Source: Sediminispirochaeta bajacaliforniensis DSM 16054
GTDB lineage: Bacteria; Spirochaetota; Spirochaetia; DSM-16054; Sediminispirochaetaceae
Reading direction: 5' to 3'
NCBI RefSeq assembly: GCF_000378205.1
Contig: NZ_KB899415.1
Coordinates: 62,001 to 126,000, forward strand
Length of the DNA: 64,000 bases
Below the pieces are notes generated by a model. The model was not told the origin of the DNA. It saw only the letters and a list, made by a program, of their open reading frames with translations, and searched no databases. A program made the position numbers and the translations under genes. Positions 18,778 to 39,634 of the stretch are shown here, in pieces; the first letter of the stretch is position 1; the number at the start of each line of letters is the position of its first letter.

Positions 18778-18789
18778 ACCTACCAAAAA

Positions 18790-18974: not shown

Positions 18975-18994
18975 GGTGATACCCAAAAAATATA

Positions 18995-19006
18995 TGGATA
19001 TATCCA
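18995..19006. promoter_or_regulatory. Operator 2 of the GntR/LacI regulator
   Basis: TGGATATATCCA, a perfect 12-bp palindrome identical to the core at the regulator's own promoter. It lies just downstream of the system 1 promoter and just upstream of the Shine-Dalgarno, a roadblock position. Confidence 0.75.
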
Positions 19007-19018
19007 AAAGGAGACCTT

Positions 19019-20005
19019 ATGAGAAAACCATTGATGTTCCTTATTGTGCTATTGGCAGCTGGGGGATTGCTCTATGCCGGTGGCCAAACGGAAGGTTCCT
19101 CACCGGAAGCTGCTTCAGGCTTAAGTGGGGTTGTCACCTTGTATACGCCCCATGGAGCCGAGATCACCGATCCCATCTTAGATGCGTTTCATGCGAAGTA
19201 TCCTGATATCAAGATCCAAATTGTAAGCGCAGGAACCGGAGAACTGCTGTCGAGGCTTGAGGCCGAAAAAGATAATCCGACCGCCGATGTCATGTGGGGT
19301 GGCGATACGATTTCTTTTGAGTCCTACTCGCATCTATTTGCTTCTTATGAATCTCCCGAAGATGCCTCTATGATGAAAAGCGATCCTGCTCATAAATGGC
19401 ATCCCTTTTCCGTTCTTTGCCAGCCGATCCTTGTCAATACGGATTTAGTGGCGGCAGATGTCTATCCCTCTACCGTTAAGCAGTTAGCCGATGCGGCGTG
19501 GAAGGATGGAAAGATTGCCCTTGCCGATCCGAATAAATCTGGCACCGGTTATACCATTGTATCTGGACTTGTCAATGCCTATGGCTGGGATTTCGTTGGG
19601 AAACTACTTGATAACTGTGTCGTCACTCCCGGTTCCGATGCTATGTTCAAGGCCGTCAAAGACGGTGAAGTTGCGGTCGGTTTTATCAACGAGGATTTGG
19701 GGGCAAAATGGGAGCAGGAAGGCCTGCCGGTTAAAATGATCTATGCGAAGGATGCTGTTACGGTTCAGATGGATGCCGTTGCATTGGTTGCGAATTCCCC
19801 GAGCCCTGAAATTGGCAAAGTTGTTCTTGATTTTATTTGTTCGGCGGATGCACATAAGATAGCAGTGGAGCAGATTTCTCGCCGTTCCGCACGAATCGAT
19901 GTAGATCCCCCTTCCATTCTTCCCGCATTGGGTCAGCTCAATCTTTTTCCTGCAAATGAGCCCCGACAGGTTGTTAATGCGAAGTTTGAAAAATTGGCGC
20001 AGTGA
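19019..20005 (+). CDS. ABC transporter substrate-binding protein 1 (FbpA/AfuA-like)
   Basis: A 328-residue periplasmic binding protein with an N-terminal signal peptide (PLMFLIVLLAAGGLLYAGGQ) and no cysteine lipobox, so soluble or signal-anchored. The fold signature is that of family-1 anion-binding proteins (COG1840): VTLYTPHGAEITDPILDAF, then GTGELLSRLEAEKDNPTADVMWGGD. Family members bind Fe3+, hexose phosphates (AfuA), phosphonates or polyamines, so the ligand cannot be read from the family alone. The linked cytoplasmic GH63-like enzyme points to an anionic sugar. AAAGGAG lies 7 nt before ATG 19019. It is expressed from the GntR-controlled promoter. Confidence 0.88.
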   Translation: MRKPLMFLIVLLAAGGLLYAGGQTEGSSPEAASGLSGVVTLYTPHGAEITDPILDAFHAKYPDIKIQIVSAGTGELLSRLEAEKDNPTADVMWGGDTISFESYSHLFASYESPEDASMMKSDPAHKWHPFSVLCQPILVNTDLVAADVYPSTVKQLADAAWKDGKIALADPNKSGTGYTIVSGLVNAYGWDFVGKLLDNCVVTPGSDAMFKAVKDGEVAVGFINEDLGAKWEQEGLPVKMIYAKDAVTVQMDAVALVANSPSPEIGKVVLDFICSADAHKIAVEQISRRSARIDVDPPSILPALGQLNLFPANEPRQVVNAKFEKLAQ

Positions 20006-20015
20006 TTTTTCTTAT

Positions 20016-20047
20016 AAAGCACCTTGATACATCAGGGTGCTTTTTTT
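20016..20047 (+). terminator. Intercistronic terminator after SBP1
   Basis: AAAGCACCTTGA and TCAGGGTGCTTT form a stem of about 11 bp followed by seven T. It sits between the binding-protein and permease genes, so only part of transcription would continue into the permease, giving excess binding protein. Confidence 0.8.
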
Positions 20048-20067
20048 CCTAAAAAAAGGAGTACATC

Positions 20068-22113
20068 TTGAGCCGTATTTTGATCTTCTTTAGGGACCCC
20101 TGGAAAATTTTTACTGCAATCGCTCTTGTTTTGCTCATTTCCCTTGTGCTTTTCTCACAGGTATGGATCTGTAAATCCTCCTTTCAAAGAAACGGCGGAG
20201 AATTTACCATCAGTACTTCGACCGACGGCGAGCTTCTGTTGGAAGATGAGACGGTGAAAGGATTTTCTTTGTCTCAGGTTTCCGACGGCCGTTATCGTGT
20301 AAACCAGGGACATACTCCGCTTTATATCATTACAAGCATGGGGCCTGGTATGCTTGAAATAAAAGCGGTAAATGGAAATATAGCGGACAATACGTCCCTC
20401 CAGGAGGGTGCCGCCTCTCTATCAACCGGACCGGATACACTCTGGATATCACAAAAAATTTTTACCGGATTATTTGATGACGGAAGTGATCATCAACCGT
20501 TGACACTGCAGAAAAACGCCGAAAACATGGTACGCCTGCAATACCATCCTGGGGCCTTTCTTCTTTTTGCTGATAAGAAAACCCATTATACTCTGTCCAA
20601 TTATGTGACCTTTTTCCGAAATTCAAAATATCTAAGTGCGGTAAAGAATAGTTTCCTGGTAATGATATTCTCCACACTTATTGCTTCATTTTTTGGTGTC
20701 GGACTTGCATACCTTTATGCCAGATATAAGGTTCCGGGCACGAGTTCCGTCTTGACGATTATTACGATGGCCTCCGTTTCTCCTCCTTTCCTTGGTGCAT
20801 ATGCATGGCGAATGTTGTTGGGCAGTTCCGGAGTGATTACCCGGCTTTTTCACCTCAATTGGACCATTGTCGGTTTGCACGGGGTCGTCTGGGTCATAAG
20901 CTGGTTGGTTTTTCCCATTATATTTTTACTAACCTATGATGCTTTTATTTCTTTGGACCACTCTTTACGAGAGTGTTCGATGAGTTTAGGGGGGGATCGA
21001 AAAAAAACGTTTTTTCGAATCGAACTGCCGATGGCCATGCCCGGAATCCTAAACGGGCTCTATCTTGCAATGATGACTGCGTTTACCGATTTTGGTACCC
21101 CATATGTTATTTCGCTGAATTTAAATGTGCTTCCCGTCATGATCTATAAGGAATATATGAATGAGGTCGGCGGAAATCTTTCAATTGCCAGTACGGGAAG
21201 CATGCTTATGATTTTTTTCTCCTCGTTGATTCTCATGGCACAGCGGATTTACCTTGCCCGACGCTCTTATGCATCTGTTAAATCGCATCAGCCTTCAGCA
21301 CGACAGGCGGGAAAGGGAAAAAAACGGCTGATTTATTCTTTGACGGCTGTTGTCCTTGCTTTTGCGTTTCTTCCTCACATTACCGTGGCGATTTCTGCTT
21401 TTTTTAAGTGGAAGGTCGGGATTCTGACTTCCACCTTTACTCTGGATAATTTTACGAGATTATTCAGAAGCAACCTCAGTTCTGTCGGCGTGACCTTATT
21501 CACAGGAGGTACGGCAACCCTCTTGGATTTTGTCTTCGGGATCGGTATTGCCTTTGTCGTGGTCAAAAAGCGTTACCCCGTTGTTACAAATCTTCTTAAT
21601 CAACTTGTAATGGTTCCTTATCTGATTCCAGGAACTGTACTTGGTATCGGGTTTATCCTTTTATTCAACCAGCCTCCTATTGTCTTAACAGGGACATGGT
21701 TGATTTTGGTTCTTGCCTATTTTATCAGAAAGTTGCCGTATTCGGTAAAGAGTGCAGAATCTGCTTTATATCAGGTCCACTCGGCCTTGGGAGAGGCTGC
21801 GGAAAGTCTTGGCGCAAAGCCTATGAGGAGTTTTTGGCAGATTACCTTTCCGCTGATTATCGGTGGTGTTATCAGCGGGGCAACGCTTTCGTTTCTTCAG
21901 ATAATGACGGAAATAAGTGCTTCTATCATTCTCTATCGTCCTCCGTGGAAGCCCATGACTGCCGTAATTTTTGAGAATACCATCGACGCCGGGGCCGACT
22001 TTGGGATTGCATCGGCCATGACTGTGCTGCTGATGGTGATGCTCTATGTGCCCCTCTATATTGTAACCATCAAAGCTCGAAAACCTAAGGAGGTCCGCAT
22101 TGAAAGTATCTGA
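20068..22113 (+). CDS. ABC transporter permease 1 (fused, with periplasmic insert)
   Basis: A 681-residue inner-membrane permease with two binding-protein-dependent transport domains in one chain (FbpB type). EAA-like loops read ECSMSLGGDRKKTFFRIELPMAMPGIL near 305-330 and EAAESLGAKPMRSFWQITFPLIIGG near 575-600. Unlike permeases 2 and 3 in this window, TM1 (about 13-33) is followed by a segment of about 150 residues, predicted extracytoplasmic, before the next membrane helix near 192. That insert has an alternating beta pattern. The start is TTG 20068 with AAAGGAG 6 nt upstream. The 3' end overlaps the ATPase gene by 14 bp. Confidence 0.9.
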   Translation: MSRILIFFRDPWKIFTAIALVLLISLVLFSQVWICKSSFQRNGGEFTISTSTDGELLLEDETVKGFSLSQVSDGRYRVNQGHTPLYIITSMGPGMLEIKAVNGNIADNTSLQEGAASLSTGPDTLWISQKIFTGLFDDGSDHQPLTLQKNAENMVRLQYHPGAFLLFADKKTHYTLSNYVTFFRNSKYLSAVKNSFLVMIFSTLIASFFGVGLAYLYARYKVPGTSSVLTIITMASVSPPFLGAYAWRMLLGSSGVITRLFHLNWTIVGLHGVVWVISWLVFPIIFLLTYDAFISLDHSLRECSMSLGGDRKKTFFRIELPMAMPGILNGLYLAMMTAFTDFGTPYVISLNLNVLPVMIYKEYMNEVGGNLSIASTGSMLMIFFSSLILMAQRIYLARRSYASVKSHQPSARQAGKGKKRLIYSLTAVVLAFAFLPHITVAISAFFKWKVGILTSTFTLDNFTRLFRSNLSSVGVTLFTGGTATLLDFVFGIGIAFVVVKKRYPVVTNLLNQLVMVPYLIPGTVLGIGFILLFNQPPIVLTGTWLILVLAYFIRKLPYSVKSAESALYQVHSALGEAAESLGAKPMRSFWQITFPLIIGGVISGATLSFLQIMTEISASIILYRPPWKPMTAVIFENTIDAGADFGIASAMTVLLMVMLYVPLYIVTIKARKPKEVRIESI

Positions 22114-23152
22114 TACAAATCGGAAAACTACCTCGGTATCAATAAACGAGGTCCAGAAAAATTTCGGTGCTATTCAGGCACTTCGTAATGTTTCACTGGA
22201 GATCCATGAAAAAGAGTTTTTCACTCTGTTGGGGCCTTCGGGGTGCGGAAAGACTACTCTTTTACGTAGCATCGCCGGTTTTGAGAAAACGACAAAGGGC
22301 GATATCTTTTTTAACGAGGAAAATACGACAAATATTCCGCCGTGGGATAAGAATATCGGTTTTGTCTTTCAAAACTATGCTCTATGGCCGAATAAGAGTG
22401 TTTATCGAAATATAGCTTATGGATTGGAACTCAGAAAAAAGGATGCTTCATATATAAAAGAAAAGATCTCATGGGCCCTCGATATGGTTGAGCTTAGCGG
22501 AATAGAGAAAAAGTTTCCCGAAGAGTTGAGTGGGGGGCAACAGCAGCGTGTGGCAATCGCTCGTGCCTTGGTAATCGATCCCGATATCCTTCTTTTGGAC
22601 GAGCCTTTATCCAACCTCGACGCAAAATTACGTATATCATTACGACAGCAAATCAGAAATATACAACGTTCTCTCGAGATCACGGCAGTATACGTGACTC
22701 ATGATCAGGAGGAGGCCCTCGAGATCTCCGATAGAATCGCCGTGATGAATAAGGGTGAAGTTTTACAGGTCGGTCCGCCGGAAGAAATTTATCAGCGGCC
22801 AAGTGACCTCTTTGTAGCGGACTTTATCGGAAAAGCCAATTTTCTTGAGGGCGAATTGCATGGATCAGACTTTAAGCTTCCTGGCAACTTGGTAATAACA
22901 CTTCAGCCGAAAAACTGTAAGGCTGGTAAGGGAATTCTTTTTACAAGGCCAGAATCCTTCTCTCATTCAAAGGACGAAGGCTTTGGTGGAATTCGCGGAC
23001 GAATAATTCAGCGATACTATCTTGGTAACTTATATCGATACCGAGTTGATATCGGTAATGAGATGTCTATTCTTCTGGAGACAGGAGAAGAATATAACGA
23101 AGGTGATTTGATACAGCTAAAGGTGAACAACTATGAAATCTTTAACCAATAG
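22100..23152 (+). CDS. ABC transporter ATP-binding protein 1
   Basis: A 350-residue ATPase for permease 1. Walker A is GPSGCGKTT (near 46), the Q-loop region is [11 protein letters not shown], the signature is [14 protein letters not shown], Walker B is [12 protein letters not shown], and the H-loop is [13 protein letters not shown]-like C-terminal domain (about 240-350) is present as in FbpC/PotA-type proteins. It starts at TTG 22100 with AAGGAGG 6 nt upstream, inside the permease gene, and overlaps the following glycosidase gene by 20 bp, so the operon is tightly coupled. Confidence 0.94.
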
Positions 23153-25427
23153 AGAATCTTTTTTCGCATCCCTTCCCGAAATGAAAGCGTTATTTGGCAA
23201 CCTTGTTACAGTAAAGGATAAGGAAGGTTGTCACTGTCCCGGCATTCACCAGGGATTTATTGCATCGATCATACAGTTTCAGCCATTGCTTGAAATAGCA
23301 GTTTTTACTTCCGATGGCACTAAGGTCGAGTTTACTCTCAAGGAAGCAATATCGACTCCAATAGAGATATGCAAAACCTTCACTTCTTCGCTTGGACTCA
23401 TTATGGACCAACGCTTTTCCGTATTAGGAAATCAGGTCTTTCTTCACGTTGAATTTTCAAGAGATCCGGATGCGGGAATAAGGGATTTCTCTGTGGATTT
23501 TTCGGGAGCGTTACTTTTTTCACCGCAAGGTGTTCCCTATCATTGGGAAGATGAAAAAAAGGTGAACGCTTATATAAAAAGTACCCAAGAGCTCCATGGT
23601 ATATGGAAAGAGACAAGCTTTGTACTTCGATTTTCCAAAACACTAAAAGGGCTTGCTTTGCATAAGATCAATGCCGAGGAGATAAAAAGGGAACAGTATT
23701 TTTCCAGTCACAACCTTAAAAAGCGGTATACCTATTGGGTCGAGAGGCCTCAACGGGGAGGCTATGATGAAGCATCATCTCTTTGCAGCAGAAATATGGG
23801 ATATGCCGGAGCATGGATTCCGGACTTTGCCGACGGGAAAAAGGCAAGTATCGATATCAATTTTTCCGTTTTATCAACAAATGAAGTTGCTGACTCTGAT
23901 AGCCCAAAACCGATCGAAGAGGTAACTACTTTACTCAATAATGAATGGGAAGAATATATCAAGAAAATTCCAAATTTTCGGTGTTCGGAAAAAAATCTTG
24001 AAAAAATTTATTACACAAGTTGGTATATTCTAAAATCCGGTAGAATCCACTTTCCGGAAAAGCGTTTTACATACCCGTTCACTTCGGTAAATAAATTTCA
24101 CTACTATAATCAATTTTTTTGGGATTCTGCCTTTCAAGCGATTGCCTGGCTTTGGTTTAACGATCCCGACCCTTCTGAAAGTGAGATGAAAAATTTTGTT
24201 GCTCACCAATGGCGAAACGGAATGATTCCCTACGAACTTTTTATGTATCCGGTAAATGGTCGGGAATGGATGGATGGTGATTCTCTCACCTCGGGGACAA
24301 CGCAACCTCCTGTAATCGGCATCACCTTGAAGGAGGTTTTTACAAAATTCGGCAACAAGGCCTATCTCCATTTTTTCTATGATTCCCTGGTCGAGTATGA
24401 AAGGTGGTTGAGCCTTTACCGAGATTTGGGGAAAAGGGGGCTTTCCTCTTATGTAAATATCTGGGAAACGGGTTGGGATAATAGTCCCCGTTTCGATGCT
24501 GCGGCCCGGAATAGGGTCCTTGACCCCTTTATTGAGGGGGTTGATTTTAACGTTTATATCTACATCTTGCGCGAGACCATTCTCCAGATTGCTTCTGTTC
24601 TTGGTAAGCCTGAACCGCAGGGAATCCGGGAGCATCAGGCAATGACAAAACGCAGCATGAATGAGCTGATGTACAACCAGGAAGATCACTTTTATTACGA
24701 TTTGGAAGCGGCAACGGATCACAGAATTCCGGTCAAGACTGCGGCCGGGCTTCTCCCTTTGATGACTGATATTCCATCGGCGGCGCAACGTTCGGCTCTC
24801 ATCGATCGCTATCTATGTTCGGAAAAGGAGTTTCTAACGACCGCTCCCGTGCCGTCGGTAAGCCAGAGTGAAGAAAGTTATAGTTCTTACGATTTTTGGC
24901 GGGGAGCGAACTGGCCGCAAATAACCTGGTCCGTGTTGTATGGAATCTGTGAAAGTGAACCGGATGAAGCAGGGAAGGTACTCGATCGATTCCTCCATTC
25001 CACAAGTGCAAATGAAAACTGCTATGAATACTACGATTCGGCCACAGGGGAGGGGGCCGGATTACCTTTTCAGGGGTGGGGTGCACTATATACCGATTTT
25101 ATTATTCGCTTTGTTGTCGGCATACATCCGACGAAAGAAGGGTTCCGATTTAATCCAATTTCCAAAGAATACAGAAATTTTCAGCTTGATAATCTTATCT
25201 TGAAGGGGAGAAAAATTTCCATAGAGCGAAAAGGTCAGACGTGGAATATAGGAATTGCAGGATATGGTGTCATTACGTATGTCGAAACTCTCATATGTGA
25301 TGTTGATCTTTCCGGCGTGGAAATCGCGATCTCTTTTGACCCCAAAAAAGCCGATCTCTCTTCGATTTCTTTTTCCGGTGCCTCTTATTGGCAGGAAAAC
25401 ACGCTTTTTCTAAAAGCTGAATGTTAA
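23133..25427 (+). CDS. GH63-like glycosidase, cytoplasmic (glucosyl-/mannosylglycerate hydrolase-like)
   Basis: A 764-residue enzyme without signal peptide. An N-terminal beta domain (about 1-290) is followed by an (alpha/alpha)6 barrel with NQFFWDSAFQAIAWLW (near 328-343) and WETGWDNSPRFD (near 443-454). Both segments match the GH63 group that includes mannosylglycerate and glucosylglycerate hydrolases, whose substrates are anionic sugar glycerates. Trehalase (GH37) is a more distant alternative. Overlap with the ATPase gene and the absence of a signal indicate hydrolysis after import by system 1. The substrate is inferred. ATG 23133 lies 20 bp inside the preceding gene. Confidence 0.72.
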   Translation: MKSLTNRESFFASLPEMKALFGNLVTVKDKEGCHCPGIHQGFIASIIQFQPLLEIAVFTSDGTKVEFTLKEAISTPIEICKTFTSSLGLIMDQRFSVLGNQVFLHVEFSRDPDAGIRDFSVDFSGALLFSPQGVPYHWEDEKKVNAYIKSTQELHGIWKETSFVLRFSKTLKGLALHKINAEEIKREQYFSSHNLKKRYTYWVERPQRGGYDEASSLCSRNMGYAGAWIPDFADGKKASIDINFSVLSTNEVADSDSPKPIEEVTTLLNNEWEEYIKKIPNFRCSEKNLEKIYYTSWYILKSGRIHFPEKRFTYPFTSVNKFHYYNQFFWDSAFQAIAWLWFNDPDPSESEMKNFVAHQWRNGMIPYELFMYPVNGREWMDGDSLTSGTTQPPVIGITLKEVFTKFGNKAYLHFFYDSLVEYERWLSLYRDLGKRGLSSYVNIWETGWDNSPRFDAAARNRVLDPFIEGVDFNVYIYILRETILQIASVLGKPEPQGIREHQAMTKRSMNELMYNQEDHFYYDLEAATDHRIPVKTAAGLLPLMTDIPSAAQRSALIDRYLCSEKEFLTTAPVPSVSQSEESYSSYDFWRGANWPQITWSVLYGICESEPDEAGKVLDRFLHSTSANENCYEYYDSATGEGAGLPFQGWGALYTDFIIRFVVGIHPTKEGFRFNPISKEYRNFQLDNLILKGRKISIERKGQTWNIGIAGYGVITYVETLICDVDLSGVEIAISFDPKKADLSSISFSGASYWQENTLFLKAEC

Positions 25428-25559: not shown

Positions 25560-26570
25560 ATGGCCGTTACAATAAAGGATATTGCCAAGATTGCCGGTGT
25601 CACGCATTCAACCGTTTCGAGATGTTTAAATGATAAGCCGGGAGTTTCCGACGCTATGAGGGCGGAAATAAAACGTATAGCCCAAGATCTCGGCTTTGAA
25701 TTTAATGCTAATGCGCGGAGTTTGCATACCAGCAAGACGGAGACGATAGGAATTATTCTCAATGAGGCAAATGATGATAATCAACCTCATCTATTTACAA
25801 ATAATTTTCTTCGGCATATTAGACATCAGCTGGAAGAAGAGGATTTGGATACGATCACGACCTTTCCCCACAATGACTATTCGGGAAAAGATAATATTCA
25901 AAAAATTGTCAACAGGCGAAAGGTTGATGGCCTTATACTTCTTACTTCTTCAATCGAAAAAGAAACCGTTGATTTTTTACGGGATGCTGAGATCCCGTTT
26001 GTTTTTTCCCACCAGATCCCTCCTGACGAATTTGGTAAGGTTAATGCTGTCTATTGTGACCATCGAAAGGGGGGGTATTTGGCGACTAAACATTTGATCG
26101 ATTGCGGATACCGGAGGATTCTCTGTGTCACCCGACCCGATCAACGTTTGGAGTTTGCATTACGAACAGATGGCTATCGGCAGGCCTTGGAAGAGGCTGG
26201 AATAGCCGTTGATGAGACGATGATCTTAAAGGGGGGATCCTCCTTTGATTTCTGCCCGGAGGATGTGGAACGGGAAATCCTGCAGGTTTCAAAATACGAT
26301 GCCATCTTTGCCCATACCGATCTTATCGCTCTTGAGATCATGAAAGAATTAGTCAAACATGGTGTTTCTGTTCCTAAGGATATTGCCCTTATGGGCTATG
26401 ATAATATTGAATTGTGTACCTTTTTTGAACCGCATCTCTCGTCGGTTGCACAACCCCTGGAAGACATATCGATAAAGACCTGTGAAATCCTGATTAAGCA
26501 ACTCGCCGGTGATAATACGGTAAAACGGTTTGTTTTTCAGCCCCGTTTAATTCCTCGCGAAACGACCTAA
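25560..26570 (+). CDS. LacI-family transcriptional regulator 1
   Basis: A 336-residue LacI-type repressor. The N-terminal HTH reads TIKDIAKIAGVTHSTVSRCLNDKPGVS, the hinge helix NANARSLHTSKTETIG, and a sugar-binding-protein-like sensor fills about 60-336. The following phosphatase gene (26817) and system 2 (28414) both carry the palindrome CACACGTGTG upstream, with the central CG step that LacI hinge helices typically contact, so this gene is the likely regulator of both. AAGGA precedes ATG 25560. A weak promoter (TTGCAT, 17 bp, TATTCT; 25482-25510) can be seen. No CACACGTGTG occurs upstream of the gene itself. Confidence 0.92.
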   Translation: MAVTIKDIAKIAGVTHSTVSRCLNDKPGVSDAMRAEIKRIAQDLGFEFNANARSLHTSKTETIGIILNEANDDNQPHLFTNNFLRHIRHQLEEEDLDTITTFPHNDYSGKDNIQKIVNRRKVDGLILLTSSIEKETVDFLRDAEIPFVFSHQIPPDEFGKVNAVYCDHRKGGYLATKHLIDCGYRRILCVTRPDQRLEFALRTDGYRQALEEAGIAVDETMILKGGSSFDFCPEDVEREILQVSKYDAIFAHTDLIALEIMKELVKHGVSVPKDIALMGYDNIELCTFFEPHLSSVAQPLEDISIKTCEILIKQLAGDNTVKRFVFQPRLIPRETT

Positions 26571-26632
26571 AACATAAGAAAAAAATTCCTTTACAAGAGA
26601 AGAATTCGGGAATAGCATAAAGCACATCTACT

Positions 26633-26642
26633 CACACGTGTG
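26633..26642. promoter_or_regulatory. Candidate LacI-1 operator upstream of the phosphatase gene
   Basis: CACACGTGTG, a perfect 10-bp palindrome, is repeated exactly upstream of SBP2 (28367-28376). Flanking bases also allow an 8-bp stem (AAAGCACA/TGTGCTTT). Confidence 0.6.
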
Positions 26643-26690
26643 CTTTGTGCTATGGAGGAGTGGCCTCTGGTTATACTGTTTGATTGTGTA

Positions 26691-26754
26691 AAAACAACAG
26701 CTGTTTTGTTGATGTGATTATTAATGTGTACAAAGAATAAGTTTTATTCTTTGT
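26691..26754. promoter_or_regulatory. Two further symmetrical sequences before the phosphatase gene
   Basis: An imperfect 20-bp palindrome centred at 26700/26701 (AACAG|CTGTT core) is followed by a perfect 11-bp inverted repeat with a 3-nt spacer (ACAAAGAATAA / TTATTCTTTGT, 26730-26754). No T tract follows. They may be operators or an mRNA leader hairpin; the nearest -10-like sequence is TATACT at 26672-26677. Confidence 0.4.
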
Positions 26755-26816: not shown

Positions 26817-28247
26817 ATGAAAAAAAGGTTCTTATGGGGCGTTCTTGCATCGGTTTTTTTGTTGTGTACTTCGGCTTGTAACACCACGGGAAACCATGCC
26901 GAGAGCGGTAAGTCGGAAGTATCTGGATCATTGTTCCTTGGCTCAAAAAGTCCGTACCCGGTACCTACTAATCTTGTCTACACAGAAGCTCCTGCTGGTT
27001 ATGAGGCCTCGTTTTTGTATGTACTGCATCGACACGGATCTAGAAATTTATCAGGTTTCAAATATGACAAGGCATGGCTTGAATTATTGGATGCTGCTCG
27101 AAAAGACGGGCAATTAACAGAAGCCGGGACCATGCTCTATGGGGAAATAAAGCAGATCGCAGATTACGAAATTGGTAAATACGGTCTTTTGACAAACCTC
27201 GGGAAAGATGAACTTTTCGGCATCGGAAAAAGGGCTGGAGAAAATTTCAGCGATCTCTTCTGTACTGGAAGCCCTCTTTTCGCCGATGCTACCTACAAAG
27301 AGAGAACGCAAGAGTCGAGGGACAGCTTCTTGGCGGGGCTTGTGGCTTCAGGTTATCATGGAGAAATAGATAAAACTTTCTATGAAAAGAAAAAAGATCC
27401 CTATCTGCGTCCCATGGATTTGGCAAAGAAGTATAGCGATTATTTTGACAATGGCCTCTGGCATGAAACGATAAAAAAATATCAAAATTGTGATGCTGTA
27501 CGGCTGATGGCTGAAAGGGTCTGTTCTCAATTTTTTGGAACGCGTTTTCTACGAAAATTGGACAGAGGTGAGATGGAATTCTATGATGAGAAGGGAAAGG
27601 TCATAATTGACAGCACTGCTACGGCAAGCTCGGCATTGTATGAACTCTACATCATTCTTCCTGCACTACGTGAAGACGGATTTGCAGATATTAATCTGAA
27701 AAAATATTTTCAGGATGACGAGCTTCAGATGTTTGAAACAATACAAAATGCGAAGTCGTTTTATACATATGGCAGTGGAGATCCAGCTTCAGAAAATATC
27801 TCACTTAATATTATGGCCCCACTGGCTAAGCACATGATTAATGCTATTGACGAATCTTTGGATGGAAGTTCTCCGTATCTTGCAGTATGTAGTTTTGCTC
27901 ATGCAGAAACTCTGGTCCCTCTCGTCGGATTTCTTGATATTGAGAATGCCGGTAAGGCTTATGATTCCGTTGAAGAAGCGGTAAAAAACTGGAACACCGC
28001 CTATTATGGACCGATGGGCGGAAATTTGCAATTAGTTGTCTATAGGTCACCCGGTAAAGAAGCTCTTATAAAAGTTCTTCTTAACGAAAGAGAAAGCCGA
28101 TTTTCTGAAGAGATATCCCCTTCCCAGGGGCCTTACTATCGTTGGTCCGAGATCAGACAGTATTATCTTAAAAAGGTAGAGGCTTTGGGCATAGTTCCAA
28201 ACAGTAGTGTTGAAGATGATATTTTCAATCTGAAGAACAATTTCTAA
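26817..28247 (+). CDS. MINPP/phytase-like histidine phosphatase lipoprotein
   Basis: A 476-residue lipoprotein (CTSAC lipobox, Cys21) of the branch-2 histidine phosphatase clan. The catalytic LHRHGSR is at 71-76 (phosphorylated His73). The C-terminal proton donor motif is HAE at 362-364 (SFAHAETLVPLVGFL) rather than the HD of AppA/PhyA-type phytases. HAE is the hallmark of multiple inositol-polyphosphate phosphatases. A supporting segment reads RTQESRDSFLAGLV. It would strip phosphates from phytate or a similar polyphosphate outside the cytoplasm. Its own operator (CACACGTGTG) and terminator frame it as a single transcript beside system 2. AAGGAG lies before ATG 26817. Confidence 0.85.
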   Translation: MKKRFLWGVLASVFLLCTSACNTTGNHAESGKSEVSGSLFLGSKSPYPVPTNLVYTEAPAGYEASFLYVLHRHGSRNLSGFKYDKAWLELLDAARKDGQLTEAGTMLYGEIKQIADYEIGKYGLLTNLGKDELFGIGKRAGENFSDLFCTGSPLFADATYKERTQESRDSFLAGLVASGYHGEIDKTFYEKKKDPYLRPMDLAKKYSDYFDNGLWHETIKKYQNCDAVRLMAERVCSQFFGTRFLRKLDRGEMEFYDEKGKVIIDSTATASSALYELYIILPALREDGFADINLKKYFQDDELQMFETIQNAKSFYTYGSGDPASENISLNIMAPLAKHMINAIDESLDGSSPYLAVCSFAHAETLVPLVGFLDIENAGKAYDSVEEAVKNWNTAYYGPMGGNLQLVVYRSPGKEALIKVLLNERESRFSEEISPSQGPYYRWSEIRQYYLKKVEALGIVPNSSVEDDIFNLKNNF

Positions 28248-28270: not shown

Positions 28271-28301
28271 GGGACACATTCCTCAAAAATGTGTCCCTTT
28301 T
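28271..28301 (+). terminator. Rho-independent terminator of the phosphatase gene
   Basis: A 10-bp stem GGGACACATT/AATGTGTCCC with a 7-nt loop, then TTTT, 24 bp after the stop codon. It separates the phosphatase gene from system 2. Confidence 0.85.
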
Positions 28302-28362: not shown

Positions 28363-28399
28363 AACACACACGTGTGCGTTATATGAACAAACGTGTGTT
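28363..28399. promoter_or_regulatory. Double operator at system 2
   Basis: AACACACACGTGTGCGTT (28363-28380) is an 18-bp palindrome with a single mismatched pair and the core CACACGTGTG. A second site AACAAACGTGTGTT (28386-28399) is a 14-bp palindrome with one mismatch; the centres are 21 bp apart (two helical turns). Their position over the transcription start fits repression by LacI regulator 1. Confidence 0.65.
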
Positions 28400-28413: not shown

Positions 28414-29475
28414 ATGAAAAAACGAGTGATGCTTTTTTTGACTGCGACGATTTTAGGGACAGCTCTTTTACTGAGTTGTGGTGGACGTTCCGCAGAAAAA
28501 AGTGACGGAGAAGGAAAAGCTGAGTCGACACACCTTACTATGTATTGTGCTCTTCCAGAAACGGAAATTCCTTCATACCTTGAGGCCTTCAAGGAAGACA
28601 CCGGGATTACCGTCGATTTTGTACGCTTGTCGGCTGGGGAAGTATTATCAAAGGTTCAGGTTGAAAAGAACAATCCGCAGGCAAGCATTTGGTATGGCGG
28701 TAATTGCGATACCTTTATTGCTGCTGCTGCCAATGACCTTCTTGAGCCCTATAAGTCATCGGAGCTGATCAATATTCCTGCCAGTTATCAGGATCCTGAT
28801 GGCTATTGGTCTCCTGTCTATGTTGGGGCTTTGGCCTTTGCCGTCAACAAGGAGTGGTTTGCGGACCATTCACTTTCCTATCCTACATCCTGGAACGATC
28901 TTCTGGATCCGCAATACAAGGATCAGATTTCAATGGCTCATCCCGGATCTTCAGGTACGGCATATACCATTCTGGCCACAATGGTGCAGATGCTTGGAGA
29001 GGAAGAGGCCATGGCCTATATGAAGGAACTGGACAAGAATATTCGGCAGTATACAAAATCAGGTTCCGCACCCCCTAAGAATGTTGGGTTGGGGGAGGCC
29101 TCCATCGGTCTGGCCTTTTCTCATGATTGTTTAAAGCCGGCCGTTCAAGGATATCCTGTGGAGACTGTCTTTCCGAAGGACGGTACTGGTTATGAGATTG
29201 GTGCCATTGCAATTATAAAGAATGGGCCAAAAGAGGAACACGAGAATGCAAAAAAATTCATTGACTGGGTTTTAAGCGAACGAGCTCAGGATATCTATTC
29301 GCAAAACAGCTCTTTTCGTCTGCCGGTTAATATGCATGCGCAGGTTCCCTCCGGTGCCATCAGCATCGATAAGCTTCCGATAATAGAATACGATTTTATT
29401 TGGGCTGGAGAGAATCGTAAACGACTCATTGAGAAATTCAGCGATGTCGTTTCCAACGCAAATAATCTTAAATAG
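28414..29475 (+). CDS. ABC transporter substrate-binding lipoprotein 2 (FbpA/AfuA-like)
   Basis: A 353-residue lipoprotein (ALLLSC lipobox near residue 20). The COG1840 fold signature reads LTMYCALPETEIPSYLEAF, then SAGEVLSKVQVEKNNPQASIWYGG, and the hinge segment KDQISMAHPGSSGTAYTILATM parallels SBP1. The AfuA branch of this family binds sugar phosphates. In this operon the downstream partners are a permease, an ATPase, a HAD phosphatase and a PfkB kinase, which fits a phosphorylated polyol better than iron. The start at 28414 has AGGAGGGAAAAC upstream; the in-frame ATG at 28393 lies inside the operator. Confidence 0.88.
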   Translation: MKKRVMLFLTATILGTALLLSCGGRSAEKSDGEGKAESTHLTMYCALPETEIPSYLEAFKEDTGITVDFVRLSAGEVLSKVQVEKNNPQASIWYGGNCDTFIAAAANDLLEPYKSSELINIPASYQDPDGYWSPVYVGALAFAVNKEWFADHSLSYPTSWNDLLDPQYKDQISMAHPGSSGTAYTILATMVQMLGEEEAMAYMKELDKNIRQYTKSGSAPPKNVGLGEASIGLAFSHDCLKPAVQGYPVETVFPKDGTGYEIGAIAIIKNGPKEEHENAKKFIDWVLSERAQDIYSQNSSFRLPVNMHAQVPSGAISIDKLPIIEYDFIWAGENRKRLIEKFSDVVSNANNLK

Positions 29476-29527: not shown

Positions 29528-31213
29528 ATGAGAAACGGCACCAACGATCTTATGTGGAAGATGAAAATGATAATAAAAGAGCCCATTTTGATTATTTTCA
29601 TTCTTCTTTTGTTGTTACTTTTAACCGTTTTTGTTTTTTATCCATTATTAATGCTGATAAAATATAGTATCACTGCGGATGGCGGCGAGCTTTCTCTTCA
29701 AACCATCTGGGCCGTGGTAAAAAATGGTTCGTATAGAATCATCTTTAGCAACAGCATTAAACTCGGGCTCATCTCGGCATGTATAGCGACGATTATCGGA
29801 TATATCTTTGCTTTTGCCATTACCCGAACCGAACTCCCCATGAAGGGCTTCATGAAAACAATGGCGACGTTGCCAATTGTATCGCCGCCGTTTGTACTCT
29901 CTCTTTCTATTATTTTCCTTTTTGGCAGGAAAGGATTGATTACAAACGGACTGCTGGGGCTCACGGATTTTAATGTATATGGCATGCATAGTTTGATTTT
30001 GGTCCAAACAATTTCTTTTTTTCCTGTTGCCTATCTGACGCTTTCTGGTATTTTGCAAGCTATAGACTCTTCGGTGGAAGATGCTGCACTTAACCTTGGG
30101 GCTTCACGGTGGAAAATTTTCTGGACCGTGACGTTTCCTTTATCTCTTCCGGGTATCTTTAGTGCATTTCTTTTGGTATTCATACAATCCTTACAGGATT
30201 TTAGTAACCCGGCCGTTATCGGTGGGGGATTTCCTACATTGGGCGTTGAAGCGTATCGCGTAATTACCGGCATGTATGATCTAAGAACAGGTGCAATTCT
30301 CTCTATCATGTTGTTGATTCCCAGTTTGATGGCCTTTCTCCTCCAGCGATACTGGATAAGCGGAAAGGGGTTTGTCACTGTAACCGGTAAGCCCTCTCAG
30401 AATAGAACCAAGTTGAATCAGAGGCACATTGTCATACCGCTTTTTGCGGTTTGCTTACTTTTTTGCGCCGTCATTGTACTTTTCTATGGAACGGTCATTG
30501 TCGGAGCCTTTGTAAAAGTTTGGGGCGTAAATTATTCCTTTACCCTTGATCATTTTCGGTATGTCTTTTCCATAGGCTTCAAACCACTGAGGAATGCGGT
30601 TACTCTGGCAATTATTGCGACACCTATTACCGGTCTGACAGGGATGGCAATTGCTTTCTTAACGGTCAGAAAAAGTTTCTTTGGTAAGCGCTATATGAGT
30701 CTTGCTTCGTTGCTCACCTTTGCCCTTCCCGGGACCGTTGTCGGTATCAGCTATATTCTTGCGTTCAACGATCGTCCTTTTTTGCTGACGGGGACGGCGG
30801 TGATTCTTATCTGTGTATTTGTTTTCAGAAATCTTCCGGTAGGAATTGAGGGAGCAAGTTCCGCTCTTATGCAGATTGATCCTTCAATTGAAGAGGCCTC
30901 TATAAACATGGGTGCAGGTAGTTTCTATACCTTTTTCCATATAACCCTTCCGTTGATTCGGGGAGCCTTTTTTTCCGGGCTGGTATATTCGTTTGTCAGA
31001 GCCATGACGGCGGTGAGTGCCATTATTTTTCTCGTTTCGGCGCGTTGGAATGTTGTCACGACCAGGATTTTTTCACTTTTTGAGGTGAGCCAGTATAGTG
31101 ATGCCGCAGCGTATATTGTGATAATGATCATCGTAATAGTATGTGCAATTTATGTTCTTAGTTTTCTTGTAAACAAGATGGATCCCGAAAAAAACGCTAT
31201 GGTAAGGAAATAA
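29528..31213 (+). CDS. ABC transporter permease 2 (fused two-domain)
   Basis: A 561-residue inner-membrane protein with about 12 hydrophobic segments and two transport domains in one chain. The EAA loops are EDAALNLGASRWKIFWTVTFPLSLPG (near 180-205) and EEASINMGAGSFYTFFHITLPLIRG (near 455-480). It has a short first periplasmic loop, unlike permease 1. AAGGAAG lies before ATG 29528. Only 4 bp separate it from the ATPase gene. Confidence 0.93.
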   Translation: MRNGTNDLMWKMKMIIKEPILIIFILLLLLLLTVFVFYPLLMLIKYSITADGGELSLQTIWAVVKNGSYRIIFSNSIKLGLISACIATIIGYIFAFAITRTELPMKGFMKTMATLPIVSPPFVLSLSIIFLFGRKGLITNGLLGLTDFNVYGMHSLILVQTISFFPVAYLTLSGILQAIDSSVEDAALNLGASRWKIFWTVTFPLSLPGIFSAFLLVFIQSLQDFSNPAVIGGGFPTLGVEAYRVITGMYDLRTGAILSIMLLIPSLMAFLLQRYWISGKGFVTVTGKPSQNRTKLNQRHIVIPLFAVCLLFCAVIVLFYGTVIVGAFVKVWGVNYSFTLDHFRYVFSIGFKPLRNAVTLAIIATPITGLTGMAIAFLTVRKSFFGKRYMSLASLLTFALPGTVVGISYILAFNDRPFLLTGTAVILICVFVFRNLPVGIEGASSALMQIDPSIEEASINMGAGSFYTFFHITLPLIRGAFFSGLVYSFVRAMTAVSAIIFLVSARWNVVTTRIFSLFEVSQYSDAAAYIVIMIIVIVCAIYVLSFLVNKMDPEKNAMVRK

Positions 31214-31217: not shown

Positions 31218-32357
31218 ATGAGAAACCGAATTGAGGATGCAATTAAGGCAAAAAGCAGTAGCCTTCGTCTGGTAGATGTGACAAAAAAGTTTCGTCAAAT
31301 AGGGGGATCAGGAGAGGTTATTGCCGTTGATAATGTTAATCTTTCGATCGAATCAGGTGAGCTTGTTACCCTTTTAGGACCTTCCGGTTGTGGAAAAACT
31401 ACAACGTTGAGAATGGTTGCAGGATTCGAGAGTGTGACCTCCGGCAAGCTTTTTCTCGGAGATGAAATGATAGAATCCGTACCTCCGAATAAGCGTGATA
31501 TGGCTATGATGTTTCAGAGCTATGCACTTTTTCCTCATATGACCGTATATAACAATATACGTTATGGTTTGAAGCTAAAAAAACTTCCCGAGGCTGAGAT
31601 AAAACAGCGGACGAATCAGATAATCGAGCTTATGCAAATCAAAGGTATGGAAAACAGGCTTCCTTCGCAAATCTCCGGGGGACAACAGCAGCGCGTCGCA
31701 TTAGCAAGGGCTGTCGTCATTGAGCCCAAGGTCTTGCTGTTTGATGAACCTCTTTCAAACCTTGATGCAAAACTTAGGGAATATATGCGTGATGAGCTTC
31801 GTGCTCTTCAAAAGCGGTTGGGTATAACCAGCCTGTATGTCACTCACGATCAATCCGAGGCTATGGCTATATCGGATAAAGTGGTACTCATGAATGCCGG
31901 GAGGATCGTTCAGGTAGGAACCCCGTTGGATTTGTATAATGAACCGGCGAGCCTTTTTGTTGCAGAGTTTATAGGAAAGTCCAATTTTCTTCCCTGCGAA
32001 ATAAAGGAAAAAAGTGACGACGGTATTGAGTCGGTTATTCTTGGTGCCAGAATTACCGTACCCTCGCCGGGAAAGCATTTTTCCTTTTTCAAAGGAGAGG
32101 CCACTGCCGTAATTCGGCCCGAATTTATTAGGGTATTAGAAAAAGAAGATGGGCAGTTTACAGGAGTAGTACGAAAAACGGTTTTCTTCGGTAATTTTGT
32201 CGAATACGAAATAGAAATTAAAAATAGGATCATCAAAGTTGAATCATATTGTCCACTTGAAAAGAAAATATATCAAGTAGAGGATATCGTCGGCATAGCC
32301 GTGAATATCGATGGTATACGTTTGCTGAAAAATAACGATGGGGAAGCGGATGCTTGA
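31218..32357 (+). CDS. ABC transporter ATP-binding protein 2
   Basis: A 379-residue ATPase of system 2. Walker A is GPSGCGKTT (near 55), the signature [14 protein letters not shown], Walker [15 protein letters not shown], the H-loop VTHDQSEA, followed by a TOBE-like C-terminal domain (about 265-379) as in sugar and FbpC-type importers. The stop overlaps the start of the HAD gene (ATGCTTGA), so the two are coupled. Confidence 0.94.
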   Translation: MRNRIEDAIKAKSSSLRLVDVTKKFRQIGGSGEVIAVDNVNLSIESGELVTLLGPSGCGKTTTLRMVAGFESVTSGKLFLGDEMIESVPPNKRDMAMMFQSYALFPHMTVYNNIRYGLKLKKLPEAEIKQRTNQIIELMQIKGMENRLPSQISGGQQQRVALARAVVIEPKVLLFDEPLSNLDAKLREYMRDELRALQKRLGITSLYVTHDQSEAMAISDKVVLMNAGRIVQVGTPLDLYNEPASLFVAEFIGKSNFLPCEIKEKSDDGIESVILGARITVPSPGKHFSFFKGEATAVIRPEFIRVLEKEDGQFTGVVRKTVFFGNFVEYEIEIKNRIIKVESYCPLEKKIYQVEDIVGIAVNIDGIRLLKNNDGEADA

Positions 32358-33156
32358 GTACACACTTGCAATATGTGACATCGACGGGACATTGGTAGAT
32401 GCTGAGAAAAAGATTTCTTCATTTAATAAAAAGATGATAAAAGAGTTTTGCCGCTGCGGAGGAATGCTCTCTTTTGCAACGGGAAGAATCGAGAAATCGG
32501 CGATTCCCTATTACGAAGAATTGGAGATGCATATCCCGATTATTTTATATAACGGGGCAAGAATTTATCACCCCGATACCAAAACGGCGATCTATGATTC
32601 CTTTCTTACCACGTGTGATGTCGATAGGGCCATAGATCTTTTACCACAATTCCCTTTTGATTATGTTTTTTATTCGAATGGAGAGGCTTATACCCTGAAG
32701 AGGTCCGATAATGTACGCCGATACGAAGAGGGTGATAGAATTACTTGTGCCTTGATCGACAGTGTGGACGTGCTAAAAGAAAGGGAGATAACAAAAATTC
32801 TGATGATCGGTGATAATAGTTTGTTTAAGAAATTTCGGGACCTTTTCTCGGATGATGCTGCTACCTCTGCCCGACTTGTGCAATCTGAATTAAATTTCCT
32901 TGAAATTCTTCCAAGTGCTGTGAGCAAAGGAAGTTCGTTATTGCATTTGGCCGACTACCTCGGGATCAATATAAAACGGATTGCCTGTTTTGGCGACGGC
33001 TTGAATGACATGGAGATGATACGCAATGCGGGACTGGGGGTTGCCATGGGCAATGCTCGTCAGGAATTAAAAGATGCTGCCGATATAGTTGCTCCTTCCA
33101 ATACCGAAGATGGAGTTGGAAAGATCTTAAAAGCCATCATGGAGAAAAAAATATGA
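32350..33156 (+). CDS. Cof-type HAD phosphatase
   Basis: A 268-residue class IIB HAD hydrolase. Motif I is ICDIDGTLVD with both aspartates, motif II is FATGRIEK, the motif III lysine lies in SKGSSLLHLADYLGI and motif IV is CFGDGLNDMEM. Cof-type enzymes dephosphorylate sugar phosphates and similar small esters. Its place between the ATPase and kinase genes suggests it removes phosphate from the imported substrate. ATG 32350 is chosen because it is preceded by GGGGAAG and overlaps the ATPase stop; an ATG 12 bp upstream lacks a site. The 3' end overlaps the kinase gene as ATGA. Confidence 0.88.
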   Translation: MLEYTLAICDIDGTLVDAEKKISSFNKKMIKEFCRCGGMLSFATGRIEKSAIPYYEELEMHIPIILYNGARIYHPDTKTAIYDSFLTTCDVDRAIDLLPQFPFDYVFYSNGEAYTLKRSDNVRRYEEGDRITCALIDSVDVLKEREITKILMIGDNSLFKKFRDLFSDDAATSARLVQSELNFLEILPSAVSKGSSLLHLADYLGINIKRIACFGDGLNDMEMIRNAGLGVAMGNARQELKDAADIVAPSNTEDGVGKILKAIMEKKI

Positions 33157-34046
33157 CATACGATATAACAATGATCGGGCATATCTCAAAAGATGTCATG
33201 ATTTACCCTGAAGAGGAGCAAAGATTTATCGGAGGACCTGTCATCTATTCCTCAATCGCCGCTACTCGTTCGGGAAAACGGATACATGTTATTACAAAAT
33301 GTTCGGAAAAAGATAAAGCGGCGCTATGCGGTATGGAAGCGGAGGGCGTGAAGGTTAGCTGGTTAGCTTCGCCCGATACAACCAGTATAGAAAATATATA
33401 TCTTTCCGATGATCGCGAAAGGCGAAAGGTTCGGCTTTTAAGTAAAGCCTCTTCTTTTTCTCTCGAAGAACTCCCGGAAGCAGGAAGCCTCATCTTCCAT
33501 TTGGCAGGTTTATTTAAGGACGAGATACCTGATGCCATTATTCCTCATCTTGCAAAGAAAGGGAGTGTCGGTGTCGATGCCCAGGGCCTTCTTCGATGCA
33601 ACGAGAAAGGAGCGCTTTTTTTCAAGAACTGGGAAAACGCCCATCAGCTCATGCCCCATATCAGCTATTTTAAGGCGGATGCAATGGAGGCTGAAATCCT
33701 AACCGGAACCTCTGATAGAAAAGATGCCGCACGGATTCTTGCGGATATGGGGGCAAAAGAGATCGTCATTACCCATCATGACGGAGTTCTCGTTTTGGTA
33801 AACGGCGAATTTTTCTATGCTCCCTATACTGCTGCAAACCTGTCCGGCAGGACTGGCCGGGGTGATACCACCTTTGCCGCCTACATGGCTGTTCGACTTG
33901 ATTCCGATCCCTCTTGGGCAACGGCTTATGCCGCCGCCCTCTGTTCCATGAAAATGGAAGCCCCTGGCCCATTCTCGGGGACTGAGGAAATGGTATATGA
34001 ACGAATGAAGCATATGGGATTTTCTCGTGAGAGCCAGGAAAAATAG
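33153..34046 (+). CDS. PfkB-family kinase 1 (TM0415-like, inositol-linked)
   Basis: A 297-residue ribokinase-fold kinase. It begins TYDITMIGHISKDV, has VITKC near 47 and the C-terminal signature LSGRTGRGDTTFAAYM with catalytic base D238. The usual NxxE magnesium motif reads DAME (176-179). Together with GRTGRGDT this resembles Thermotoga maritima TM0415 as I remember it. TM0415 is encoded in the inositol cluster next to a transporter (InoEFGK, TM0418-0421) reported to recognise myo-inositol phosphate. The most likely substrate is myo-inositol or a related polyol, which is inference. It is the last gene of system 2. Confidence 0.82.
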   Translation: MTYDITMIGHISKDVMIYPEEEQRFIGGPVIYSSIAATRSGKRIHVITKCSEKDKAALCGMEAEGVKVSWLASPDTTSIENIYLSDDRERRKVRLLSKASSFSLEELPEAGSLIFHLAGLFKDEIPDAIIPHLAKKGSVGVDAQGLLRCNEKGALFFKNWENAHQLMPHISYFKADAMEAEILTGTSDRKDAARILADMGAKEIVITHHDGVLVLVNGEFFYAPYTAANLSGRTGRGDTTFAAYMAVRLDSDPSWATAYAAALCSMKMEAPGPFSGTEEMVYERMKHMGFSRESQEK

Positions 34047-34118: not shown

Positions 34119-35123
34119 ATGCGAGTGACCATCAAAGATATTGCGAGAGAGGCGGGGGTCTCGACTGCTGCCGTGTCCAAGGCCTTGAATGGACAACCGG
34201 ATATTGGCGAAACAACACGGTTACGAATTATCCGGATAAGTCGTGAATTGGGTTATACCCCGAATATGATTGCCCGCAATTTGGTAACAAAGGGGAATAA
34301 GACCATTGGTGTATTAATTCCCGATATTTCCACGCCCATCTATCCTCGTATCTATAAGGGGATAAATGAAACGGCCATGAAGTACGGATATACACTTTTG
34401 CTTGGCGACACCAAGCGGAGCATAGAAAGCGAAAAGAAATATATCATGACGATGATGGAGAACCGGGTGGCCGGGCTCCTTGTCAGTCCTGTTAGCAATG
34501 ATATCTCTCATATTGTACAGGTTGTTCGGGGACAGATACCGATCATCTATTTCGGTGGAAAGGTCAACGATGCAATGAAGAATTCCATCGGTATCGATAA
34601 TTATCACGGCGCCATGCTCGCCATTGATTATCTAACGGGGCTTGGACATAAGGATATTATCATGATCTGTGATGATCTTGATACGAAAACACGACACGAT
34701 CGAGTCGATGGATATAGGGAGGCAATGGAAAAAAAAGGGTTGAAGCCTCTTGTCGTTTTTAACAATGAAGGTTTAAAAGGTCGTCAGTGTGGTGTTTCGG
34801 CCATACGCCATATCATTGCGGGGAGGACACTTCCTACGGCTGTTTTTGCCTTGAACGATTTGATGGCGATAGGGGCTATGGAGGCTCTCTCCGAGGCGGG
34901 GCTACGGGTTCCCGAGGCTGTTTCCGTGATGGGTTATGATGATATTTCATTTGCATCTCTCCCGATGATAGGACTTTCTACCATCTGGCAACCAAAGTTC
35001 AAAACAGGAGAGATGGCCCTTGAGCTGTTACATAAAAAGTTGCAGGACGATCCTGTAACAGAAGATCGCAAGATTGTCTTGCAGCCTGAACTGAGGATCA
35101 GGACATCGACCTGTCGAATATAA
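34119..35123 (+). CDS. LacI-family transcriptional regulator 2
   Basis: A 334-residue LacI-type repressor. The HTH reads TIKDIAREAGVSTAAVSKALNGQPDIG, the hinge region PNMIARNLVTKGNKTIGVLIPD, and a sensor domain follows. It lies between systems 2 and 3. The palindrome with core TTAAACGTTT flanks it on both sides, at its own promoter and before the PHP gene, so it probably represses itself and system 3. GAGGG lies 6 nt before ATG 34119. Confidence 0.94.
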   Translation: MRVTIKDIAREAGVSTAAVSKALNGQPDIGETTRLRIIRISRELGYTPNMIARNLVTKGNKTIGVLIPDISTPIYPRIYKGINETAMKYGYTLLLGDTKRSIESEKKYIMTMMENRVAGLLVSPVSNDISHIVQVVRGQIPIIYFGGKVNDAMKNSIGIDNYHGAMLAIDYLTGLGHKDIIMICDDLDTKTRHDRVDGYREAMEKKGLKPLVVFNNEGLKGRQCGVSAIRHIIAGRTLPTAVFALNDLMAIGAMEALSEAGLRVPEAVSVMGYDDISFASLPMIGLSTIWQPKFKTGEMALELLHKKLQDDPVTEDRKIVLQPELRIRTSTCRI

Positions 35124-35135: not shown

Positions 35136-35155
35136 ATACTTAAACGTTTAAGTAT
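35136..35155. promoter_or_regulatory. Perfect 20-bp LacI-2 operator before system 3
   Basis: ATACTTAAACGTTTAAGTAT is a perfect palindrome with a central CG, 16 bp before the PHP gene start. It is the classic shape of a LacI-family operator. Confidence 0.85.
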
Positions 35156-35171
35156 GAAGGAGTTTAGATAC

Positions 35172-35867
35172 ATGAAAAGATCGTATGCATATGAAACTCA
35201 TGCTCATACGACCGAAGTAAGCAGTTGTGGCCGAGTAAGAGCTGCCGATGCTCTTCGAATGTACAAGCGTGCCGGCTACCAGGGCATTATTTTTACCGAC
35301 CATTTTCATGACGATTATTTCTCTTCTCTTGGAGAGATGCCTTGGGAGGCCAAGATCGATTGCTATCTTACAGGCTATCGGGAAGCTGTCAAAGTGGCCC
35401 GGACATTGGACATGGATGTTTTATGGGGAATGGAGCTGCGCTTTACCGAAAACGATAACGATTACCTTGTCTATGGAATAGATAGCGACTTCTTGAAGGG
35501 GTGGGAAGATCTTCATCGTTCATCAATCAGCATATTCATGGAATCAATTAAGAGTAGGACAGATGTTCTGGTGTATCAGGCTCATCCTTTTCGCGATGGC
35601 TGTCGGTTGGTAGATCCTGTGATCGTCCATGGCTTGGAAATCTATAACGGAAATCCTCGACATGATTCAAGAAATAATCTTGCCGCACAGGCGGCTGCGG
35701 AAAACCGTACGCTTATCTTGTCCGGTTCTGATTTTCACAGGCCCGGCGATCTGGCAAGCGGCGGGGTGTTCCTGCCTGAACGTATCTCCTGTAATGCCGA
35801 ACTTATTGCCGCTTTGAAAGCTATTCGTTATGACGCTTTAATCATAAAGGAACCTGCATGCAAATAG
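35172..35867 (+). CDS. PHP-domain metal-dependent phosphoesterase
   Basis: A 231-residue PHP-fold hydrolase. Metal-binding motifs are THAHTTEVSS (near 9-18), FTDHFHDDY, YQAHPFRDG and GSDFHRPGD near the C-terminus. PHP enzymes include histidinol phosphatase and cyclic-phosphate or trinucleotide phosphoesterases. Here it leads transport system 3, so it likely acts on an imported phosphoester. ATG 35172 is preceded by AAGGAG at 9 nt; the in-frame ATG at 35154 lies in the operator. It overlaps the HAD gene by 10 bp. Confidence 0.82.
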   Translation: MKRSYAYETHAHTTEVSSCGRVRAADALRMYKRAGYQGIIFTDHFHDDYFSSLGEMPWEAKIDCYLTGYREAVKVARTLDMDVLWGMELRFTENDNDYLVYGIDSDFLKGWEDLHRSSISIFMESIKSRTDVLVYQAHPFRDGCRLVDPVIVHGLEIYNGNPRHDSRNNLAAQAAAENRTLILSGSDFHRPGDLASGGVFLPERISCNAELIAALKAIRYDALIIKEPACK

Positions 35868-38485: not shown

Positions 38486-38486
38486 T

Positions 38487-39626: not shown

Positions 39627-39634
39627 TGGAATCT

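Follow-up and report, generated by a model that had tools for sequence, protein, structure and literature searches.

Bacterial uptake of phytate-breakdown products is poorly known. InoEFGK, which corresponds to KEGG M00599, is an inositol-phosphate ABC system that has already been proposed (PMC3750489, PMC5237526), and the texts consulted report no phytase with it. A 2024 study of phytate-degrading gut bacteria proposed the uptake of Ins(2)P and inositol released by a periplasmic phytase, and the only transporter it named was one for inositol. AfuA is a binding protein for hexose and heptose 6-phosphates; its H/D/E residues are indispensable for binding G6P and serve as a sugar-phosphate motif, while an S37A variant still binds G6P at 0.9 uM (PMC4546632). 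Among the histidine phosphatases, the HD motif is replaced by HAE in MINPPs (PMC7762957). In the open-access literature, no description was found of a phytase–ABC transporter–IMPase operon or of phytase-linked transporters of the T3 family discussed below, and no paper was found on the binding of inositol phosphates by AfuA or by T3.

The window analyzed here is a stretch of 64,000 nucleotides from Sediminispirochaeta bajacaliforniensis DSM 16054. It contains a run of about 23 kb (19019-41807) with all genes on the forward strand, which encodes three ABC importers, each with one fused permease, three binding proteins, two HAD phosphatases, a PHP protein, two PfkB kinases, two LacI regulators, and a MINPP. 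The gene order of the run is kept in a second genome of the same genus (G371). Ahead of the run lies the divergently oriented gene of a GntR-type regulator, which combines a GntR DNA-binding domain with a LacI-type sugar-binding domain. The first operon (19019..25427, forward strand) encodes a binding protein (SBP1), a fused permease, an ATPase, and an MGH1-like glycoside hydrolase. The best matches of SBP1 are 6lki/6lkg, which we take to be Staphylococcus HptA entries, and P5PA. The upstream region as a whole (17680-25427) has an HptA/P5PA-like binding protein together with an MGH1-like glycoside hydrolase.

The MINPP gene (26817..28247, forward strand) starts with ATG, is preceded by a good ribosome-binding site, AAGGAG, and runs for 476 codons without an internal stop. 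The encoded clade-2 histidine phosphatase of 476 amino acids matches Pfam His_Phos_2 (PF00328) at E=2.3e-19 over profile positions 4-354 of 354, which is far beyond chance. Its best PDB match is BtMINPP, the MINPP of Bacteroides thetaiotaomicron (4fdt, E=2.7e-34, residues 39-456), and the other closest solved structures are histidine phosphatases named as MINPPs. No NCBIfam model scored above threshold for this protein, and a single-sequence AlphaFold2 model reached a pLDDT of 37. Residues 72-77 read RHGSRN, so that the RHGXRX catalytic motif is present. The translation bears out the two motifs named in the first-pass annotation of this DNA: RHGSR occupies residues 72-76 (nt 27030-27044), and HAE occupies residues 362-364 (nt 27900-27908). 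HAE pairs with the FAHAE of BtMINPP in the alignment; H73 is the predicted nucleophile, and E364 is the predicted proton donor. The N-terminus, MKKRFLWGVLASVFLLCTSAC-N, is a putative signal peptide (26817..26879) with a lipobox-like TSAC at residues 18-21, in which Thr stands at position -3 instead of the classical Leu. The lipobox-like sequence that the same annotation noted is thus in place, with Cys21 at 26877-26879, and both it and the cysteine are kept in the MINPP of the congeneric genome (MKKRFLWGVLASVLLLCTSAC), which at 89% identity is the sole close relative found. Lipid anchoring is plausible and would not be unusual, with lipobox-like signals also occurring in the MINPPs of Acinetobacter (LAAC), Burkholderia (LAAC), and Aureibacter (LQAC). 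A scan of the genome collection for close relatives turned up only a match by chance to the signal peptide (L002); that protein is no phosphatase and was rejected.

A tree was built from 13 histidine phosphatases, 11 of which belong to the HAE clade; the set included Klebsiella PhyK and the enzyme of one further genome of the phylum (G318), and its MINPPs were all bacterial. The MINPP joins the HAE clade, which is split from PhyK and the G318 enzyme at 100/100. HAE occurs in 11/11 rows of this clade, RHGSR in nine, and RHGAR in the other two. HAE is therefore expected in a MINPP, given the replacement of HD by HAE in these enzymes (PMC7762957), and the view that it departs from the family does not hold; likewise RHGSR, which had been taken for an unusual form, is the commonest one among the sampled bacterial MINPPs. 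The motifs, Pfam, the PDB neighbors, and the tree give good support to the claim that the protein is a MINPP-like histidine phosphatase located outside the cytoplasm. The split from the PhyK-type enzyme also means that a grouping with AppA or glucose-1-phosphatase, named beforehand as counter-evidence, did not occur. The HD proton-donor motif and the PhyK grouping, which mark the HD-type enzymes AppA, Agp, and PhyK, are both absent here. Action on inositol polyphosphates outside the cytoplasm is strongly indicated by what is known of the family, and specificity for inositol phosphates is a putative assignment from family membership. The enzyme alone is an ordinary further member of a known family.

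The MINPP and the operon that follows it carry the same LacI-type palindrome, with the core CACACGTGTG. One operator candidate, TCACACGTGTGC (26632..26643), lies upstream of the MINPP and is also kept in G371, and two others, ACACACGTGTGC (28366..28377) and ACAAACGTGTGT (28387..28398), lie upstream of SBP2, the binding protein of the next importer. Within one mismatch, the palindrome ACACACGTGTGY has only 8 sites in the 4.57-Mb genome, and three of them (26632, 28366, and 28387) fall within 1.8 kb, in the two intergenic regions flanking the MINPP. The window holds 5 matches, as against 0.76 expected. Counterparts of all three candidates are present in G371; the short segment with the operator upstream of the MINPP (26620-26660 and its G371 counterpart) is inverted between the two species, and the palindrome is kept. 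An intrinsic terminator-like hairpin follows the MINPP (28271..28297, forward strand; 10 pairs then TTTT, fold z=-3.1), so the MINPP and the next importer are apparently transcribed separately but controlled by one regulator. That regulator would most simply be the adjacent LacI1 (25560..26570, forward strand). Among 44 LacI-like matches in the genome, the paralogue nearest to LacI1 is encoded within the iol cluster (42%, 245.6 bits), and narrowly behind is a paralogue that adjoins a glycoside phosphorylase (38%, 240.3 bits). The likeness to the iol-cluster regulator is a weak hint. Control of the iol cluster by the same operator was looked for there and was not supported. A perfect inverted repeat, ACAAAGAATAAGTTTTATTCTTTGT, also lies upstream of the MINPP (26730-26754); it is identical in G371, does not occur in the other stretches checked, and is possibly the site of a second regulator.

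The co-regulated importer, T2, consists of the AfuA-like binding lipoprotein SBP2 (28414..29475; 4r72, E=8.7e-67), a fused two-domain ABC permease (29528..31213) that groups in the tree with AfuB-type permeases, and an ABC ATPase (31218..32357), all on the forward strand. The true start of SBP2 is the ATG at 28414 and not the GTG at 28393. In the alignment, AfuA H205/D206/E229 correspond to SBP2 H244/D245/E268 (numbering of the 360-aa ORF from 28393), the equivalent of T150 is Thr, and S37 is replaced by Ala with a Ser beside it. T2 is an AfuABC-like transporter. Downstream on the same strand follow a Cof-type HAD sugar-phosphatase-like protein (32338..33156; Hydrolase_3 E=1.2e-62, TIGR00099 over cut-off), PfkB-family kinase 1 (33153..34046), the LacI-family regulator LacI2 (34119..35123), a PHP-domain phosphoesterase-like protein (35154..35867), and the HAD hydrolase HAD2 (35858..36619). 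PfkB-family kinase 2 (40935..41807, forward strand) is about 54% identical to kinase 1, and the two kinase genes flank the T3 region.

The third importer, T3 (36650-40868), lies 8.4 kb downstream of the MINPP and comprises a fused permease (36650..38485), an ABC ATPase (38487..39626), and a binding lipoprotein, SBP3 (39690..40868), again on the forward strand. The operator occurs at the MINPP and T2 and was not found at T3 or the iol cluster, and T3 is therefore tied to the MINPP by proximity only. The relatives of T3 were traced because the MINPP of Vibrio sp. HDW18 proved to be divergent from a T3-type operon, which continues with an inositol monophosphatase (IMPase; the annotation of this family takes in other phosphatases too), a dual-specificity phosphatase (DSP), and a LacI-type regulator. 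On Klebsiella plasmids, the order is KdgM porin, PhyK-type 3-phytase (2wnh, E=6e-83), permease, ATPase, binding protein, IMPase/DSP fusion, and LacI. In one genome of the same phylum (G256), a beta-propeller phytase (PF02333 E=5.6e-57; 1cvm E=3e-49) stands immediately upstream of the T3 genes. In the assembly of this genome a single TAG interrupts the permease frame, and the operon (contig C20) also holds several phosphomannomutase-like genes, one sugar-phosphate-isomerase-like gene, and HAD genes. The T3 clade is linked independently to three phytase types: MINPP (here and in Vibrio), PhyK (Klebsiella), and beta-propeller (G256). In rhizobia, the T3 clusters also encode IMPase, DSP, a metallophosphoesterase, and a Na/Pi cotransporter. 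In 37/37 of the plasmid records listed in both searches, T3 and DSP are no more than 14 kb apart, and most of these records come from closely related Sinorhizobium strains. IMPase and the CX5R dual-specificity phosphatase are encoded by adjacent genes in Vibrio and form a fused protein in Klebsiella, which suggests that they catalyze consecutive steps. In the run of the window, no IMPase or DSP adjoins T3.

In the permease tree, T2 and T3 are split at 100/100, and phytase-linked members occur in at least three T3 lineages. The MINPP-linked Vibrio permease and the PhyK-linked Klebsiella permease are sisters, and a phytase swap is therefore indicated. T2 and T3 are neighbors also in G212 and Shinella. 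Linkage at 2/4 loci is unlikely by chance (P about 3e-4, a rough and post-hoc value), given how few genomes of the phylum sample have a phytase family. Near most T3 loci of the phylum there is no phytase. No T2 or T3 genes were found within 7-9 kb of the MINPPs of Acinetobacter, Burkholderia, Streptomyces, and Aeromonas, and E. coli genomes gave nothing close to the phytase-transporter cluster of Klebsiella. After the Cetobacterium MINPP (34%, the closest in the plasmid search) come a PhnD/PhnC/PhnE-type ABC transporter and an MBL hydrolase, and another Klebsiella PhyK-type cluster has the order LacI, IMPase, MFS transporter, and phytase. These importers are non-homologous, and their linkages point in the same direction as those of T3. 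A second T3-type transporter of the host (contig C10:21045-22838) is followed by a response regulator and a histidine kinase, PhoB/PhoR-like by look, and by a phosphohexomutase-like gene. It is tentatively proposed, at somewhat less than even confidence, that the "iron" ABC transporters with fused permeases that make up the T3 clade serve as dedicated and widespread importers of inositol phosphates, recruited repeatedly beside unrelated phytases (MINPP, PhyK, and beta-propeller), and that the local run would form a complete pathway from extracytoplasmic phytase to cytoplasm, made up of the MINPP, T3, and the co-regulated Afu-type pump.

Phytases are scarce in the sample of 393 genomes used for the phylum. 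By protein search, the MINPP is confined to the host and G371, and thus to one genus; a clade-2 histidine phosphatase occurs in one further genome, G318 (PF00328 in 3/393), and PF02333 occurs in 2/393. The host also encodes a beta-propeller phytase (contig C1:143063-144154, PF02333 346 bits), which is absent from G371. Neither this phytase nor the G318 histidine phosphatase adjoins T3. The iolD of the host scores over the curated cut-off, and its neighbors, named by eye from their sequences, are iolG-, iolB-, and iolE-like; myo-inositol is therefore probably usable by this organism.

Taken together, it is somewhat probable that the MINPP, the co-regulated T2, and the nearby T3 serve the use of phytate through import of its partly dephosphorylated products. 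The MINPP, exported over the inner membrane and probably a lipoprotein, would strip phosphates from inositol polyphosphates outside the cytoplasm. T2, T3, or both, to judge from their linkage, would import the lower inositol phosphates or other phosphorylated cyclitols or sugars. Cytoplasmic HAD and PHP phosphatases would take off the last phosphates, and myo-inositol would then enter the iol pathway of the host. The MINPP would be under the same LacI-family control as T2, with T3 in the same gene run, and the Na/Pi cotransporter of the rhizobial T3 clusters would fit an export of surplus phosphate. The observed basis of this proposal is the family membership, the motifs, the shared operators, the conserved gene order, the linkage of T3 to three phytase types and IMPase, and the iol genes. 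From it we infer the substrates of the MINPP, T2, and T3, the order of the steps, and the effector of the regulator. Several points speak against the proposal: AfuA binds hexose and heptose 6-phosphates, many T3 homologues of the phylum have no phytase nearby, the beta-propeller phytase of the host and the G318 enzyme lie away from T3, T3 lacks the operator, and IMPase annotation is broad; HAD and PHP proteins would also have to stand in for IMPase and DSP, and the two PfkB kinases are left unexplained.

Other explanations can be given for the same genes. The MINPP could serve a general scavenging of phosphate from organophosphates, perhaps from several polyphosphorylated compounds, while T2 independently imports hexose 6-phosphates, so that the regulator would be common and the substrate chain would not. 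This is rather unlikely, although the hexose-phosphate residues of AfuA are kept in SBP2, the SBP1 of the upstream operon is HptA/P5PA-like, and MINPPs are broad-specificity enzymes. Control appears to lie with a LacI-type sugar regulator and its specific operators, and not with an obvious phosphate-starvation system, and the linkage of T3 relatives with three types of phytase and with IMPase points to inositol phosphates. Alternatively, a common type of extracytoplasmic phytase might have landed by chance in a cluster for sugar-phosphate utilization, with its products lost or taken up as free inositol and not via the neighboring pumps. In favor of this reading, the MINPP is found in only one genus of the phylum sample, has its own terminator, and is missing from the T2 and T3 module of G212, and the MINPPs of Acinetobacter, Burkholderia, Streptomyces, and Aeromonas lack such neighbors. 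However, the shared operators are conserved between two species, and MINPP is linked independently to transporters in Vibrio and Cetobacterium, which makes a chance insertion improbable.

A further possibility concerns the enzyme itself, which might be an AppA- or glucose-1-phosphatase-like enzyme or another sugar-phosphate histidine phosphatase, and not an inositol polyphosphate phosphatase. HP2 enzymes are promiscuous, and sequence alone does not give the substrate; but HAE in place of HD, nearest solved structures that are all MINPPs, and the 100/100 split from PhyK make this highly improbable. The phytate pathway with import of partly dephosphorylated products is the preferred reading. Should inositol phosphates be imported by T3 or T2, a substrate could be assigned to a sizeable group of transporters now annotated as iron ABC systems. 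Phytase operons could then be understood to supply carbon in addition to phosphorus, and MINPPs would have a definite place in bacterial metabolism. The arrangement of MINPP and importer thus yields a testable prediction.

The enzyme family is known, and the arrangement of MINPP, T2, and T3 is a variant without a precedent found in the open-access literature. Its distinctive points, the operators common to the MINPP and an AfuABC-like importer and the phytase-linked transporter family nearby, were absent from the first-pass annotation. BtMINPP (4fdt; PMC3969271) and the Bifidobacterium longum MINPP (PMC7762957) share with the enzyme of the window the HP2 family, RHGXR and HAE, and probably secretion or membrane anchoring. 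In contrast to them, the window MINPP is without the DAAM signature of U-loop enzymes and is linked to Afu-type ABC importers under LacI-type operators. T2 resembles AfuABC (PMC4546632) as an ABC importer of the iron-ABC-like family whose SBP2 aligns with AfuA over its length and keeps the H/D/E triad and the T150 equivalent, whereas it differs in the Ala at the S37 equivalent and in a MINPP neighbor with shared operators. InoEFGK (M00599) is an ABC system proposed for the import of inositol or inositol phosphate and connected with inositol catabolism, and it is of another family; its four units are a binding protein, two separate permeases, and an ATPase, a layout not found here, where T2 and T3 each have one fused Fbp/Phn/Afu-type permease with two BPD_transp_1 stretches. 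The Klebsiella PhyK clusters also place a phytase beside an importer and a LacI-type regulator, and their KdgM form uses the T3 family, whereas their phytase is an unrelated HD-type enzyme and IMPase/DSP stand where the window run has HAD and PHP proteins.
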